Below are positions 28,574 to 38,554 of a stretch of 38,554 bases of DNA, in pieces; the stretch's first letter is position 1, and each line of letters begins with the position of its first letter. Source of the stretch: Candidatus Nitrosopumilus sp. GTDB taxonomy: Archaea > Thermoproteota > Nitrososphaeria > Nitrososphaerales > Nitrosopumilaceae. The notes beneath the pieces are model-generated. The model worked only from the letters and a program-made list of their open reading frames with translations. It was not told where the DNA came from and did not search any database. The DNA is taken from NCBI GenBank assembly GCA_028279625.1, contig JANQNM010000090.1:1-38554 (forward strand), given 5' to 3'. Made by a program: the position numbers and the translations under genes.

Positions 28574-29587
28574 ATGGATTGGGGATTAAAAAACAGACTA
28601 GCACAAATTATCAAACCTCAAAATAATCGTGCACTAATGTTAGCAGTTGATCACGGATACTTTCTTGGTCCAACTGAAAAATTAGAAAATCCAAAAAAAG
28701 TAATTGCTCCACTTTTGAAACACTGTGACTCTTTGATGTTGACACGTGGTGTTCAAAGAACATCAGTTGACGCAAACACAGACACTCCTATGGTTTTGAG
28801 AGTTTCAGGTGGTTCTAGTATTATTGGAGATGACTTATCTCAAGAAGACATTACAGTATCAATTCAAGATGCAATTAGACTCAATGCAAGCGCACTTGCA
28901 ATGTCTATCTTTGTTGGTTCAAAATATGAATACCAAACAATTGTCAATCTTGGAAAACTAGTTTCTGAAGCAGAACAATACGGAATTCCTGTATTGGCAG
29001 TAACTGCAGTAGGAAAAGAGCTTGGAAAAGATGCAAGATATCTTTCACTTGCATGCAGAGTAGCAGCAGAACAAGGCGCTCACATTGTCAAGACTTACTA
29101 TTGTGAAAATTTCGAAAAAGTTGTTCAATCATGCCCAGTTCCAATCATAGTTGCTGGTGGAAAGAAGATTCCTGAACGCGATGCAATGCAGTTAACATAC
29201 AATGCAATCAAAGGTGGTGCCGTTGGAGTTGATATGGGTAGAAACATCTGGCAATCTGAACATCCTGTTGCTATGATTAAAGCAGTAAAAGCAATTGTTC
29301 ATCAAAATTACAACGTCGACCAAGCATACAAGATGTATCAAAAATTGGTTGCTGAAGAATCAAAAAGGACACCAAAATCAAAAGGTAACAAACCAAATCA
29401 GAAAAAATCAAAGAAACAAAATAATCAGAAAAAGCAAAACAATCAGAATAAACCACAACAAAAGAAATCAAAGAAACAAAACAATCAGAAAAAATCAAAC
29501 AAACAAAACAAACCAAATCAAAACAACCCAAAACAAAATAAACCTAATCAAAACAACTCAAACAAACCAAATCCTGCAAAGAAATAA
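28574..29587 (+). CDS. DhnA/LsrF-type class I aldolase with low-complexity tail
   Basis: 337 residues. Residues about 1-260 form the aldolase domain of the archaeal fructose-bisphosphate aldolase/LsrF/ADH synthase family: LAVDHGYFLGP (metal-independent class I active-site start), LTRGVQRT, Schiff-base Lys in HIVKTYYCENF, and IIVAGGKK, GAVGVDMGRNIWQ. Which substrate (fructose-bisphosphate, a thiolase-like intermediate or amino-dideoxy-hexulosonate) is uncertain. The last about 75 residues (from about 29357) are almost only Lys, Asn, Gln and Pro and contain a 60-base DNA repeat. The tail is absent from ordinary family members. Confidence 0.88.
   Translation: MDWGLKNRLAQIIKPQNNRALMLAVDHGYFLGPTEKLENPKKVIAPLLKHCDSLMLTRGVQRTSVDANTDTPMVLRVSGGSSIIGDDLSQEDITVSIQDAIRLNASALAMSIFVGSKYEYQTIVNLGKLVSEAEQYGIPVLAVTAVGKELGKDARYLSLACRVAAEQGAHIVKTYYCENFEKVVQSCPVPIIVAGGKKIPERDAMQLTYNAIKGGAVGVDMGRNIWQSEHPVAMIKAVKAIVHQNYNVDQAYKMYQKLVAEESKRTPKSKGNKPNQKKSKKQNNQKKQNNQNKPQQKKSKKQNNQKKSNKQNKPNQNNPKQNKPNQNNSNKPNPAKK
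29406..29494 (+). repeat. 60-base period repeat in aldolase tail
   Basis: The segments 29406-29434 and 29466-29494 are the same apart from one base (T/C at the middle), 60 bases apart. They encode the K-S-K-K-Q-N-N-Q-K-K unit twice and show recent internal expansion. Confidence 0.7.
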
Positions 29588-30001
29588 TCATCCTTCAATC
29601 TTTGAAAGATGAATGTGTGCAATCTTCCATGTTGGTTGTTTAACTAAAACAAATGTTGCTCTTCCCTTAATTGCCATATGTTCACCAGTGTAAGCTTTGG
29701 TATCTACTAACATTCCTTTCTGAATTAACTCCATTGCAACCACTGCTGCATCTCCAAAGATACTGATCTTAGGATTCTTGATCTCGTAACTATAGTCTGA
29801 AATACTAACAAATCTTAGTTCTTCAAGTTCTATAGTTGTTTGATAGTCTTTGAGGTCGTATGGTGGCAAATCACTAAAGCTTGAAAATTTTGGATCATTT
29901 AGATGAATGTCTCTTAATGGTGTAGTGTCTTTAGTAATTCCTGCCTGAAACAATGTCTCTATAACTTTGATAATTTCTTCGCTATCTGACAAAATGACCA
30001 A
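29588..30001 (-). CDS. NTF2-like (SnoaL-type) protein
   Basis: 137 residues from TTG 30001. Layout suits an NTF2/SnoaL-like fold: N-terminal helices (SEEIIKVIETLFQAGITKD), a middle with LRDIHLNDPKFSSFSDLPPY, and paired beta-strands (ISIFGDAAVVAMELIQKGML, RATFVLVKQPTWKIAHIHLS) with the typical final HIH. A minus-strand ACTTAAACTG box sits about 25 nt upstream. Could be an enzyme or a ligand-binding protein. Convergent and back-to-back with the aldolase stop. Confidence 0.7.
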   Translation of the reverse strand: MVILSDSEEIIKVIETLFQAGITKDTTPLRDIHLNDPKFSSFSDLPPYDLKDYQTTIELEELRFVSISDYSYEIKNPKISIFGDAAVVAMELIQKGMLVDTKAYTGEHMAIKGRATFVLVKQPTWKIAHIHLSKIEG

Positions 30002-30067
30002 CTTGCAATATGGAAATTATCAGTTTAAGTCTTCTGGAGACAGCTCACGATTATTTTTCTGAGAATC

Positions 30068-30080
30068 TTTATTAATTATT
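30068..30080 (+). promoter_or_regulatory. TATA box of the ilvB leader
   Basis: TTTATTAATTATT, about 28-30 nt before ATG 30104. By the spacing seen at other genes in the window, transcription should begin at the ATG of the leader ORF rather than at ilvB. Confidence 0.5.
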
Positions 30081-30103
30081 GATTGGTTTGATTTTTGATT
30101 TCA

Positions 30104-30157
30104 ATGAGTACATTAAATGAAGCCCTTAGCAATGAATTGCTAGTCGTTCTACTGTAA
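30104..30157 (+). CDS. Candidate leader peptide for the ilvB-ilvN-leuA operon
   Basis: 17-codon ORF encoding MSTLNEALSNELLVVLL. Six of the last six residues are Leu or Val, using codons TTG, CTA, GTC, GTT, CTA, CTG; total six Leu and two Val of 17. These are the end products of the downstream genes, as in leader peptides of bacterial ilv and leu operons. Its ATG lies at the predicted transcription start of a TATA box. It ends 46 bases before ATG 30204 of ilvB, with inverted repeats overlapping and following it. Product function is probably only to sense charged tRNA; this is inference. Confidence 0.5.
   Translation: MSTLNEALSNELLVVLL
30127..30142. repeat. Inverted repeat inside the leader ORF
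   Basis: TAGCAATGAATTGCTA: seven-base perfect arms around GA. Overlaps codons 8-13 of the leader ORF, so a ribosome over the Leu/Val codons would cover its 3' arm. Could also be a DNA operator. Confidence 0.55.
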
Positions 30158-30168
30158 AGTGTGCTCAA

Positions 30169-30188
30169 AATTTTAACACATTAAAATT
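30169..30188. repeat. Inverted repeat at the ilvB start
   Basis: AATTTTAACACATTAAAATT: perfect eight-base arms around CACA, ending one base before ATG 30189 and just before GGAG (30191-30194). All stem pairs are A/T. It may mask translation start signals, or contain a second TATA-like element. Confidence 0.55.
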
Positions 30189-30203
30189 ATGGAGATTGAG
30201 TTG

Positions 30204-31904
30204 ATGAGTAAAATGGAAAATATGATTGGTGCAAAGGCCCTGATGACTGCCATGGAAAAAGAAGGCGTCAAAGAAGTATTTGGCTTACCGGGAGGTGCAA
30301 ATCTTCCAATGTATGATGAATTTGCTAGATGTAATATTAGACATATCTTGACAAGACATGAACAGTCAGCAGCACATATGGCTGATGGCTTTGGAAGAGT
30401 TAGCAGAAAACCAGGTGTATGTTTTGCAACATCAGGACCTGGTGCTACAAACATCTTAACAGGAATTGCAACAGCTCAAGCTGACTCTGCACCAATGGTA
30501 GCAGTTACTGGACAAGTTCCTACTCCAATGATTGGTAAAGATGCATTTCAAGAAAGTGACATCATTGGAATGGCAAATCCAGTTGTAAAATATGCATTTC
30601 AACCTAGACAGGCTTCAGAAATACCTGAAGTTGTAAAAAAAGGATTTTTCATTGCAGAGACTGGAAGACCTGGACCTGTTTTGATTGACATTCCAAAAGA
30701 TGTACAACAAAACGAAGCTGAAATGGTATTTCCAGATGAATTTAAAATCCAAGGATATCATCCATGGACTGATCCTGATATTGTTGCAGTAGAAAAAGCA
30801 ATCGATATGTTACTTCATTCTCAAAAACCAGTAATCTTGGCAGGTGGTGGAACAATCATTTCATCAGCTTTTGCTGAATTACAAGCTGTTGCTGAAGCAT
30901 TAATGCTTCCTGTAGTGACCACCTTTAAAGGAAAAGGAGCATTCCCTGAAAACCATCCTTTGTCATTAGGTCCTATTGGAATGCATGGACATGCAGAGGC
31001 AAACAAAATCATGTCTGAGGCTGATTGTGTTTTAGCAATAGGAACTAGATTCTCTGATAGATCTGTTGGAACTTTTGAAGAATTTGAGAGAGGTCTTAAG
31101 ATTATTCACATGGATGTTGATCCTGCTGAGATTGGCAAAAACCAAACAGCACAACTTGCAGTTGTTGGTGATGTACAGATGAATCTCAGAATAATGGTAA
31201 AATTACTTTTGCAAAAAGCAATCAAAAAGACTGAAGAGACTCCTTGGCTCAAACACGTCAAAGAAACTAAAGCCTACTGGAAAGAAAACTTGAAACTTCA
31301 TCCAGGTGAAATGGGAGCAGCTAAAATCTTACGTAAACTTCGTGAAATCTTACCTAAAGAATCAATCATTACAACTGAAGTAGGACAACATCAAATGTGG
31401 GCTTCATTATTTTACGATGTAATTCAACCTGGAACTTTCTTTAGCTCTACTGGACTTGGTACAATGGGTTGGGGATTCCCAGCTTCAATTGGTGCCAAAG
31501 TAGCAAAGCCTGATGTTCCTGTTGTAGATATTGCTGGAGATGGAAGTTTTGCAATGACTGAAAACTCTCTTGCAACTGCAGTTTTAGAAGACATTCCAGT
31601 AATTGTATTTGTATTAAACAACTTTACATTGGGAATGGTAGCTCAATGGCAAAGAACATTTTATGATAGAAGAATGATTGGTGTAGACCAAGGAAAATAC
31701 TGTCCTGATTATGTTAAATTAGCAAAATCTTACGGCGCACAAGGAATACGTGCACAATCAATGGATGAGCTTGACAAAGCAATCAAAGATGCATTAAGCA
31801 GCAATGTTGCAACAGTAATTGATATTCCAATTGATCCTGAAGAAGATGTATTGCCATTTGTTGCACCTGGAACTTCGCTTAAGGATATGATTTTACCATC
31901 ATAG
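30204..31904 (+). CDS. ilvB: Acetolactate synthase large subunit
   Basis: Catalytic, thiamine-diphosphate-dependent subunit joining pyruvate with pyruvate or 2-ketobutyrate, first step to valine, leucine and isoleucine. 566 residues from ATG 30204; ATG 30189 is an alternative but GGAG at 30191-30194 suits the later one as ribosome binding site. Features: GLPGGANLPMYDEF, catalytic Glu in TRHEQSAAHMADG, FAD-related central domain, and the ThDP/Mg motif GDGSFAMTENSLATAVLEDI then VLNN. Expression likely controlled by the leader upstream. Followed by ilvN. Confidence 0.96.
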   Translation: MSKMENMIGAKALMTAMEKEGVKEVFGLPGGANLPMYDEFARCNIRHILTRHEQSAAHMADGFGRVSRKPGVCFATSGPGATNILTGIATAQADSAPMVAVTGQVPTPMIGKDAFQESDIIGMANPVVKYAFQPRQASEIPEVVKKGFFIAETGRPGPVLIDIPKDVQQNEAEMVFPDEFKIQGYHPWTDPDIVAVEKAIDMLLHSQKPVILAGGGTIISSAFAELQAVAEALMLPVVTTFKGKGAFPENHPLSLGPIGMHGHAEANKIMSEADCVLAIGTRFSDRSVGTFEEFERGLKIIHMDVDPAEIGKNQTAQLAVVGDVQMNLRIMVKLLLQKAIKKTEETPWLKHVKETKAYWKENLKLHPGEMGAAKILRKLREILPKESIITTEVGQHQMWASLFYDVIQPGTFFSSTGLGTMGWGFPASIGAKVAKPDVPVVDIAGDGSFAMTENSLATAVLEDIPVIVFVLNNFTLGMVAQWQRTFYDRRMIGVDQGKYCPDYVKLAKSYGAQGIRAQSMDELDKAIKDALSSNVATVIDIPIDPEEDVLPFVAPGTSLKDMILPS

Positions 31905-31913
31905 TGATTGATC

Positions 31914-32399
31914 ATGTGGGCAATTCTTTCTATTTTAGTTGAAAACAAACCTGGAATCTTGTTCAAAGTAACCCATCTCTTTCGTGCAAGAGATTTCAAT
32001 ATTGATAGTATATCTGTAGGTGTAACTGAAAATCCTGAATATTCCAAAATGACAATCACTACTGTTGGCGATGAAAAGCAGATAGACCAGATTGTAAAGC
32101 AACTCGATAAAATGATTGATACTGTAAAAGTTGAGCGTTTAGATGAGCACAAAACTGTCTACAGAGAACTTAGTATTTTTAAGATTAAACTAAGTAATGC
32201 TAATGATAGTATGGAGATTAACAAATTAGCCAATGCATATGGTGGCAAAGTCCATGATGTGAAAAAAGACTCTATTATGGTAGAACTTACTGCCACTCCT
32301 GATCAAATCAAAGCATTTGAGGAATTAGCAAAACCATTCGGAATCCTTGATGTTGCAAGAACTGGTGTTGCAGCTTTGCAAAGGAGTGGAGCAGAATGA
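31914..32399 (+). CDS. ilvN: Acetolactate synthase small (regulatory) subunit
   Basis: 161 residues from ATG 31914 (TTG 31908 possible). The N-terminal ACT domain (WAILSILVENKPGILFKVTH, then LFRARDFNIDSISVG) binds valine for feedback inhibition; the C-terminal domain (ELSIFKIKLSNANDSMEINK... RTGVAALQR) completes the usual IlvN layout. GTGAT at 31905-31910 may act as a ribosome binding site. Nine bases after ilvB, and its stop overlaps leuA by four bases. Confidence 0.95.
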   Translation: MWAILSILVENKPGILFKVTHLFRARDFNIDSISVGVTENPEYSKMTITTVGDEKQIDQIVKQLDKMIDTVKVERLDEHKTVYRELSIFKIKLSNANDSMEINKLANAYGGKVHDVKKDSIMVELTATPDQIKAFEELAKPFGILDVARTGVAALQRSGAE

Positions 32400-33913
32400 C
32401 AAATGTTAGAATATTTGATACTACTTTAAGAGATGGGGAACAAACAATTGGTGTTTCATTATCCCCAGATCAAAAATTAACAATTGCAAAAAAACTTGAT
32501 GAACTTGGAGTAGATGCAATTGAAGCTGGCTTTCCAGTAATTTCTGAAGGAGAATCCAAAGCAGTCAAAATGATTACTTCGGCAGGATTATCTTGTGAAA
32601 TTGCAGGATTGACAAGAACTATCAAAAAAGACATTGATGCTGCAATTGATGCAGGATTAAAGTATATTCACACATTCATTGCAACTTCTGATATTCACTT
32701 GGAACATAAACTCCAAATGACCCGAGAACAAGCACTTGAAAAAGCAATTGAAGCAGTTGAATATGGGAAATCACATGGTCTTCAAGTAGAGTTTTCAGCT
32801 GAAGATGCTTCAAGAACTGATAGAGAATTTTTGAAAAAAGTTTTCGGCGAAGTAGCAAAAGCTGGAGCTGATAGAGTAAACATTCCTGATACTGTAGGCT
32901 ATTCTACTCCTGAATATATGGCAGAAATCACTAAAGATACAATTGCTGCAACTAATTTACCAGTAAGTGTCCATTGTCACAATGATTTTGGCTTAGCTGT
33001 TGCAAACTCTTTGGCTGGAATTCATGCAGGTGCTGCATGTGCTCATGTTACAATTAATGGAATTGGTGAACGTGCAGGAAATGCTTCACTAGAAGAACTT
33101 TCTATGGCTTTGAAATGTTTGCCTTATGAACAAAAATATGAGACTAACATCAACTCTGAATTAATTTACGAAACATCACGATTTATCTCAAAGACTGTAG
33201 GGATTATTGTTCAACCAAACAAAGCAATTGTTGGTGCAAATGCATTTGGACATGAATCAGGTATTCACACTCATGGTGTTCTTAGCAATCCTCTCACTTA
33301 CGAACCAATTAGTCCTGAATTAGTTGGTAGAAAGAGATGGTTACAAGTAGGAAAACATGCTGGAGTTCATGGAATGAATGCAATGCTTGCAGAATACGGT
33401 GTAAAACCAACTGATGAGCAAGCAAAACAAATCTTAGATAAAGTCAAAATAATTGGTGATCAAGGAAAGCAACTCACCGATGTTGAATTGTTATCCATTG
33501 CAAGTGATGTAATGGGTGAAAAAGATCTTAAACGAATTGTTCAATTAACTGGATTTTCTGTATCAACTGGAATTGGAACAATGCCATATGCATTTGTAAA
33601 ATTAAATGTAGATGGAGAAGATCATGTTGGAACTGATTATGGTGTTGGACCAGTTGACGCAGCATTAAATGCAATTCAAAAAATTACTGGGAAACTCTCT
33701 GAGATTAGAATCAAAGATTATGGATTGGCTTCCATTTCTGGTGGTTCTAGTGCATTATGTGAAGTTACAGTAAAAGTTGAAGATGCAAGAGGCAACAAAG
33801 TATCTGCAAAATCAGTTGGTGAGGATATCGTAACTACTTCTGTCAAAGCAGTCATTGATGCCATTAATCGAATAATGCTCAAGAAAATGCTTCAAGAAAA
33901 ACAGGTCAACTAG
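32396..33913 (+). CDS. leuA: 2-isopropylmalate synthase
   Basis: First committed step of leucine synthesis: acetyl-CoA plus 2-ketoisovalerate. 505 residues. HMGL-like TIM barrel at about 1-270 with FDTTLRDGEQTIGVSLS and metal motif VSVHCHNDFGLA, SGIHTHGVL, then a C-terminal LeuA regulatory domain at about 370-500 (VSTGIGTMPYAFVKLNVDG, DYGVGPVDAALNAI). Relatives with the same layout act as citramalate synthases, which would supply isoleucine, so specificity is not certain. ATGA overlap with ilvN shows co-translation. Confidence 0.92.
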   Translation: MTNVRIFDTTLRDGEQTIGVSLSPDQKLTIAKKLDELGVDAIEAGFPVISEGESKAVKMITSAGLSCEIAGLTRTIKKDIDAAIDAGLKYIHTFIATSDIHLEHKLQMTREQALEKAIEAVEYGKSHGLQVEFSAEDASRTDREFLKKVFGEVAKAGADRVNIPDTVGYSTPEYMAEITKDTIAATNLPVSVHCHNDFGLAVANSLAGIHAGAACAHVTINGIGERAGNASLEELSMALKCLPYEQKYETNINSELIYETSRFISKTVGIIVQPNKAIVGANAFGHESGIHTHGVLSNPLTYEPISPELVGRKRWLQVGKHAGVHGMNAMLAEYGVKPTDEQAKQILDKVKIIGDQGKQLTDVELLSIASDVMGEKDLKRIVQLTGFSVSTGIGTMPYAFVKLNVDGEDHVGTDYGVGPVDAALNAIQKITGKLSEIRIKDYGLASISGGSSALCEVTVKVEDARGNKVSAKSVGEDIVTTSVKAVIDAINRIMLKKMLQEKQVN

Positions 33914-37435: not shown

Positions 37436-38554
37436 ATGCAATTTGGGAAATTCTCCTTTCTACTGATGGGTGTATTTCTGATTTTTATTTTTGTACATGA
37501 TGAAGCATTTGCTCAAACAGTTCCTGATAGAGTTACTGGTCTTTCAGCAACCGCAATTAGTCCATATCAAATTGATTTATCCTGGACTACTCCTGGTGAT
37601 GGTGGTTCACCAATCACTGGTTATGAAATAGAACGTAAGAAAGGCTCTGATCCGTGGATTGTTCATATTGCAGATACTGGTAACACAAACACATCGTTTT
37701 CTGATCAAGGACTAGAACCTGATACTCGATACCGTTACCGTGTTAGTGCAATCAATGCAATCGGCATTGGTCAAGCATCATCTGCTGATGCTGCAAGAAC
37801 TCTAGACATTACAGTTTCTGATAGAGTTACTGGTCTTTCAGCTACTGCCATTAGTCCAAACCAAATTGATTTGTCATGGGATGAACCTTACGATGGCGAG
37901 TCACCCATTACCGGTTATCAAATTGAACGTAAGAAAGGTGCAGAAGATTGGGTAATTTACATTGCAGATACTGGTAACACAAACACATCTTACTCTGATC
38001 AGAGATTAGACTCTGACACAGTTTATCGTTACAAGGTTAGCGCAATTAATGCAATTGGAACAGGCAATTCATCAACTGCCAAATCTGCAAGAACTTTAGA
38101 CATTACAGTTCCAGATAGAGTTACTGGTCTTTCAGCTACTGCTATTAGTCCAAACCAAATTGATTTGTCATGGGATGAACCTTACGATGGCGAGTCATCA
38201 ATCACAGGATACCAGATTGAAAGAAGAAAAACTGGAGATTCATGGTTGATTCATGTTGCCGACACTGGTAACACAAGCACAACATATTCTGATTTGGGGT
38301 TAATTTCTGGAACCGAGTACTCTTACCGTGTTAGTGCAATCAATGCAATAGGAATGGGTTCTGCCTCTACTGTTGCTACCACTACGACACTAGGGCCTAC
38401 CCAGACCGAACCTGATAGAGTTACTGGTCTTTCAGCAACCGCAATTAGTCCAAACCAAATTGATTTGTCATGGGATGAACCTTACGATGGTGAGTCACCA
38501 ATCACAGGATATCAGATTGAGCGTAGGTATGCATCGGATCCTTGGGTAATTTAC
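37436..38554 (+). CDS. Secreted fibronectin type III repeat protein (3' end outside window)
   Basis: Frame open from ATG 37436 to the window edge, 373 codons so far (TTG 37430 in frame is an alternative start). Residues 1-26 are a signal peptide (FSFLLMGVFLIFIFVHDE, then AFA before QT). Fibronectin type III units follow, with starts at 37526, 37820, 38114 and 38414: each has VTGLSATAIS, IDLSW, ITGYEIERK/ITGYQIER, DTGNTNTS and YRVSAINAIG. The last unit is cut by the edge. Such units act in adhesion or surface structure. A CTTAATAT box lies 26 nt upstream of the ATG. Confidence 0.9.
   Translation, partial: MQFGKFSFLLMGVFLIFIFVHDEAFAQTVPDRVTGLSATAISPYQIDLSWTTPGDGGSPITGYEIERKKGSDPWIVHIADTGNTNTSFSDQGLEPDTRYRYRVSAINAIGIGQASSADAARTLDITVSDRVTGLSATAISPNQIDLSWDEPYDGESPITGYQIERKKGAEDWVIYIADTGNTNTSYSDQRLDSDTVYRYKVSAINAIGTGNSSTAKSARTLDITVPDRVTGLSATAISPNQIDLSWDEPYDGESSITGYQIERRKTGDSWLIHVADTGNTSTTYSDLGLISGTEYSYRVSAINAIGMGSASTVATTTTLGPTQTEPDRVTGLSATAISPNQIDLSWDEPYDGESPITGYQIERRYASDPWVIY
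37526..38554 (+). repeat. Tandem FN3-coding repeats
   Basis: Units begin at 37526, 37820, 38114 and 38414, giving periods of 294, 294 and 300 bases. Units 2, 3 and 4 share an uninterrupted stretch around ATTGATTTGTCATGGGATGA with almost no silent changes, which suggests recent duplication or gene conversion. Confidence 0.85.

Follow-up and report, generated by a model that had tools for sequence, protein, structure and literature searches.

The window, the whole stretch of 38,554 nt from Candidatus Nitrosopumilus sp. analysed here, carries on its plus strand a cluster of three genes whose products were assigned with Pfam. The first is ilvB, encoding the acetolactate synthase large subunit with its TPP_enzyme N, M and C domains (30213 to 31904, ATG30213 being the most likely start). 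It is followed by ilvN for the small subunit (31908 to 32399; ALS_ss_C and ACT_AHAS_ss) and by a leuA-like gene of the 2-isopropylmalate synthase family (32396 to 33913; HMGL-like and LeuA_dimer). The region of interest sits between a convergent SnoaL-like ORF on the minus strand (29588 to 30001) and ilvB-ilvN-leuA. The relatives named in a search with the IlvB protein belong to Nitrosopumilus and other Nitrososphaerales. Upstream of the SnoaL-like ORF, 28574 to 29587 encodes a DeoC/LacD-family aldolase with a long, low-complexity C-terminal tail rich in Asn, Lys, Gln and Pro. At the far end, 37440 to 38554 encodes the beginning of a protein that contains fibronectin-III-like repeats in tandem (DRVTGLSATAISP... 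units) and continues past the window end.

The sequence ahead of ilvB probably controls the branched-chain amino acid operon in this ammonia-oxidising archaeon, and all its elements lie on the plus strand. The TATA box TTTATTAATT (30068 to 30077), whose first T stands 36 nt upstream of the ATG of a short upstream ORF (uORF), would act as the distal promoter for the leader, with the transcript predicted to start near 30097 to 30104. The near-leaderless uORF of 17 codons, recognised by its conserved position and tail, extends from 30104 to 30157 (ATG30104 to TAA30157) and specifies the peptide MSTLNEALSNELLVVLL. Its last six codons, TTG CTA GTC GTT CTA CTG (LLVVLL; 30137 to 30154), directly precede the stop and are the presumed control codons, marked out by their codon bias. 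Two RNA stems found through covariation are superimposed on this ORF. P1 joins the uORF start, about codons 1-4 (30105 to 30114), to the bases immediately 3′ of the stop codon (30158 to 30167). The P2 hairpin has a 5′ arm at 30126 to 30132 and a 3′ arm at 30137 to 30143, the latter lying across the two Leu codons that open the tail. Closer to ilvB, TTAAAATT (30181 to 30188) is probably the TATA box of a proximal promoter for leaderless ilvB mRNA, as its invariance and persistence among relatives suggest. The functions of ilvB, ilvN and leuA, all downstream of the Leu/Val uORF, fit the composition of its tail.

The uORF is not peculiar to this genome. Upstream regions numbering 207 were collected across Nitrososphaerales, mostly from Nitrosopumilaceae with additional Nitrososphaeraceae and smaller families; many of the assemblies are MAGs and coverage in depth is of this one order. 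An automatic rule, asking for a TATA box 20-60 nt upstream and at least four Leu, Val or Ile among the last eight codons, identified a uORF with a Leu/Val/Ile-rich tail in 155 of the 207; a few wrong picks were dropped, and some uORFs that the rule overlooked were recognised by eye (e.g., L114, L187, L201 and L211). The distance from TATA box to ATG is 36-37 nt in 110 of the 155 leaders. Peptides from across the order include MSTRLTITFGKELPVVLTL, MTKVDSTSISSILLLVELVL, MTIYSSTAPTVLLLVELVL, MPHTGSERSRHKVKILVLLLLA and MLSTYSETTSLPVGLLLLVVLLD, and what stays constant between clades is the Leu/Val tail before the stop, the N-terminal halves being unrelated. In 39 hand-chosen representatives the last eight codons hold on average 5.9 Leu, Val or Ile, compared with 2.2 in composition shuffles of the same uORFs, a difference that lends support and is not to be read as a probability since each uORF was picked partly by its tail, which biases the test upward. 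The enrichment in these representatives runs from position -8 up to the stop. The leader is found through most of Nitrososphaerales and is therefore probably ancestral to the order.

The choice of synonymous codons adds to this picture. TTA makes up 11% of the Leu codons in Nitrosopumilus tails and 28% in the window genes (p about 6e-6), CTA and CTG being raised in the tails, although the sequences behind this count and behind those of uORF conservation are related and not phylogenetically independent. In the first half of the Nitrosopumilus leader peptides TTA provides 80% of the Leu codons. Bacterial attenuators typically use rare control codons. By its sequence, the leader thus appears as a short ORF upstream of a biosynthetic operon that is enriched in codons for the amino acids that are the end products of that operon.

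The original prediction had drawn attention to two inverted repeats in the leader, and both are present exactly as claimed. The first, TAGCAATGAATTGCTA at 30127 to 30142, does overlap Leu/Val codons: its 5′ half is included in the 5′ arm of P2, and the 3′ arm of that hairpin is composed of Leu codons. The second, AATTTTAA-CACA-TTAAAATT, occupies 30169 to 30188 with 8-base arms. Each of them alone is at chance level for the AT-rich window, which contains 14 repeats with 6-bp arms and a 4-nt loop against 19.5 expected and two with 8-bp arms and the same loop against 1.2 expected. The significance of the region comes from comparison only, and the evidence must therefore be sought in relatives.

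In an alignment of 51 Nitrosopumilus sequences (A1), P1 has eight conserved pairs, plus two in the window, and is paired in 86% of cells with 35 two-sided compensatory cells. P2 is paired in 78% of cells with 13 two-sided cells and five parsimony events; to judge from the alignment, this hairpin is real but loosely kept. The two stems together have 48 two-sided cells, where 20.5 were expected and none of 500 shuffles reached as high, and the RNAalifold consensus recovers P1 unprompted. By parsimony on a 30-species ilvB tree, P1 has undergone 13 two-sided and 10 one-sided changes that kept the pairing, set against 29 breaks, while pairings slid along the alignment as a control gave 0-8 two-sided events. 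Neighbouring genera maintain P1 with other sequences, such as GACCACA/TGTGGTC and GACTGA/TCAGTC; Nitrosotalea lacks it and has a different stem instead. In a second alignment (A2) of Nitrosotalea, Nitrosotenuis and allies, a P2-like helix is paired at 89% and a 7-bp stem that spans the uORF stop at 93%; two-sided cells number only six there, as the sequence is nearly invariant. The remaining clades have different stems 3′ of the stop, and a stop-adjacent stem, as predicted from these sequences, appears repeatedly in the order in varying forms. Rfam covariance models gave no match at the gathering threshold in the window and none at E<=1 within 30000-30300, and no known riboswitch, T-box or leader family was recognised in this way.

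The proposal that the arms of the two repeats should covary was borne out in part, with some compensation in the first and none in the second. The stem at 30169-30188 has zero two-sided changes in A1; its 5′ arm decays and is often shortened, and its 3′ arm together with the following ATGG, TTAAAATTATGG, is invariant in 51 of 51 sequences. The 3′ arm also survives in genomes that lack the uORF, and the second repeat was abandoned as a regulatory, ribosome-responsive hairpin. The partner structure that would respond to the position of the ribosome is P1, a stem absent from the original prediction. TTAAAATT or its variant TTTTAAAT is kept in relatives without the uORF and its promoter (L128, L133, L135, L149 and L155) and in GC-rich genomes (L158, L182 and L196), standing in these relatives 27-34 nt before an ilvB ATG. 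Because genomes that have lost the uORF still carry it, TTAAAATT is better read as a TATA box, most likely that of a proximal promoter producing a leaderless ilvB mRNA. The GGAG at 30191-30194 and the ilvB start codons do follow the second repeat as predicted, but the upstream ATG is not a dependable start. In L031, L037, L149, L155 and G106-G109 the frame of the ATG30189 equivalent is either interrupted by a stop or out of phase, which makes ATG30189, with GGAG as its ribosome site, unlikely, and ATG30213 is compatible with all relatives compared. Judged by this comparison, ilvB probably starts at ATG30213 and not at 30189.

The best explanation of the uORF, its tail, the codon bias, P1, P2 and the persistence of TTAAAATT, all established by comparison, is leader-peptide control via ribosome delay on the terminal Leu/Val codons, with a probability of roughly two in three. 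The distal promoter would give an mRNA starting almost at the AUG of the 17-codon uORF, which would then be translated through its six terminal codons Leu-Leu-Val-Val-Leu-Leu. When charged Leu and Val tRNAs are plentiful, the ribosome would complete the uORF and depart, upon which the post-stop bases could pair with the uORF start to form P1 with P2 inside, closing the leader and lowering downstream output. When either charged tRNA is scarce, the ribosome would dwell on the terminal codons and cover both 3′ arms (P2 and P1), presumably leaving ilvB-ilvN-leuA on. The footprint of a ribosome reaches about 15 nt ahead, so that one standing on the last codons would mask the P1 3′ arm. Modelling of the stall footprint agrees, in that the 14 nt that follow the stop are predicted to become less paired in every clade (e.g., from 0.61 to 0.44). 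The conserved stems P1 and P2 thus overlap the control codons and the region that the ribosome would cover, their dependence on the ribosome being a modelled one. The sensor part of the leader is well supported by this body of comparison. That ribosome position within a Leu/Val leader may control ilvB, the core of the original prediction, likewise draws strong support from the order-wide uORF, the codon-biased tail and the covarying stems. Read-through control from the distal promoter is favoured, combined with basal ilvB expression probably supplied by the proximal leaderless promoter at TTAAAATT. Somewhat more cautiously, the leader can be described as an archaeal amino-acid-sensing leader-peptide attenuator, in which dwell time on the terminal Leu/Val codons would decide the fate of the stop-adjoining stem and control ilvBN-leuA through termination or translation.

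Two sub-cases of leader-peptide control differ in this output step. Transcription attenuation, in which a ribosome-free leader terminates early, through a stem and short U-run or through aCPSF1/FttA acting on untranslated RNA, and in which a stalled ribosome prevents termination as in bacterial attenuators or TnaC, is a possibility held with rather less than even confidence. A stem at or after the uORF stop is followed by TTTT to TTTTTT in many Nitrosotalea, Nitrosotenuis and other leaders, and L004 carries CTGTactaaaACAG then TTTTTGTTTT. However, many leaders have no U-run: TTTT occurs within 40 nt of the stop in 23 of 51 Nitrosopumilus, 15 of 24 Nitrosotalea and 6 of 7 Nitrosotenuis leaders. 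A conserved intrinsic terminator was not found in Nitrosopumilus, nor a canonical terminator in the window. Control of translation on the erm pattern, with leader structure hindering 30S loading at the ilvB start until a stalled ribosome relieves it, is less likely. An SD-like GGAG or GGTGA close behind the stem in Nitrosotalea and Nitrosotenuis and a short gap between uORF stop and ilvB (median 29-54 nt by clade) would suit it, but neither P1 nor P2 contains the ilvB start, and the modelled accessibility of that start barely differs between the free and stalled leader in any clade (0.49 to 0.56), with a slight fall in Nitrosotalea. The near-constant accessibility and the non-universal U-runs therefore leave neither output model clearly favoured.

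Explanations that dispense with the sensing ribosome fare worse. If the product of the uORF were a small peptide with a function of its own, and the RNA stems secondary, a conserved reading frame and tail would be expected, as is seen; yet only the Leu/Val tail is kept, the tails themselves vary widely (LPVVLTL, LLLVELVL and IVPLLVP), and they favour less common synonymous codons, so that a peptide function appears improbable. Lrp-type regulators of amino-acid genes exist in archaea, and this precedent, together with the near-palindromic form of the first repeat, lies behind the suggestion that the repeats are DNA operators for an Lrp-like protein and the uORF incidental. The suggestion is hardly tenable for a region in which pairing is kept while the sequence drifts between species and in which the P1 arms, about 43 nt apart, track the start and stop of the uORF. 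The search for a shared 16-base palindrome, carried out within the window, returned no second copy at up to three mismatches, and the palindrome is not conserved between species, leaving its role as an Lrp operator unsupported.

Leader-peptide control of the kind proposed would resemble the bacterial ilv and leu attenuators (E. coli ivbL and leuL, Corynebacterium ilvBNC) in its short ORF with many codons for the regulated amino acids, its biased control codons, its alternative RNA pairing and its position upstream of ilvB or leu genes. It differs from them in its archaeal host and promoter, in a uORF almost at the mRNA 5′ end, in control codons that reach the stop, in a stem made of the uORF start and post-stop bases, and in having no conserved intrinsic terminator. 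As in the E. coli tna leader TnaC, a ribosome held on the final codons of the leader would mask the RNA after the stop; in contrast to TnaC, the archaeal tail tolerates swaps among Leu, Val and Ile, which suggests sensing of tRNA charging and not a specific arrest peptide, and Rho is not known from archaea. ErmC-type translational attenuation likewise relies on a ribosome stalled on a leader ORF to rearrange the RNA ahead of the main gene, although the archaeal signal would be amino acid supply and the ilvB start is, in the models, not clearly sequestered. Short translated ORFs also lie upstream of archaeal genes in the 5′ UTRs of Methanosarcina mazei, but the accessible part of that report presents a general class located by Ribo-seq and describes no amino-acid-specific leader (PMC11456600). 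Transcription attenuation or antitermination was stated in 2021 not to be known in archaea (PMC8448881), and attenuation by uORFs in archaea has been mentioned in general terms only (PMC10219788). A literature search, with most subscription journals outside its coverage, found no leader peptide of an archaeal amino-acid operon. If confirmed, the leader would bring archaea, and among them key organisms of the marine nitrogen cycle, into the range of ribosome-sensing leaders and offer a natural test of transcription-translation coupling with archaeal RNA polymerase.

The uORF and its promoter have been lost in small-genome and GC-rich lineages (L128, L133, L135, L149-L156, L158-L160, L182, L196, L246, L267 and L269), most of which retain a TTAAAATT-like box before ilvB; the small-genome lineages reduced to the proximal promoter constitute a ready-made evolutionary experiment. 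The uORF at locus L004 of genome G006, MINPVAASSILLLEVLY, is Leu-rich but not homologous to the others; it has a separate CTGT/ACAG stem close to its stop and the U-run TTTTTGTTTT, and may reflect replacement or reinvention of the architecture in this genome. Comparable leaders were not seen before ilvC, ilvD, hisG, pheA (PDT) and hom in 12-14 genomes. Relatives outside Nitrososphaerales (Methanosarcinales and bacteria) gave no clear case of a Leu/Val leader before ilvB among those examined, background tails there usually reaching 3-5 Leu/Val/Ile of eight. At the trpE loci L301-L314, from several Nitrosopumilaceae and the deeper-branching G302, a conserved ATG lies about 30 nt after a TTTAAATA box. 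This ATG opens a short ORF, MGG[HRLY]LW.., which holds a Trp codon and overlaps the start of trpE out of frame, the trpE frame beginning with GTG 4 nt later and imposing part of the conservation seen.
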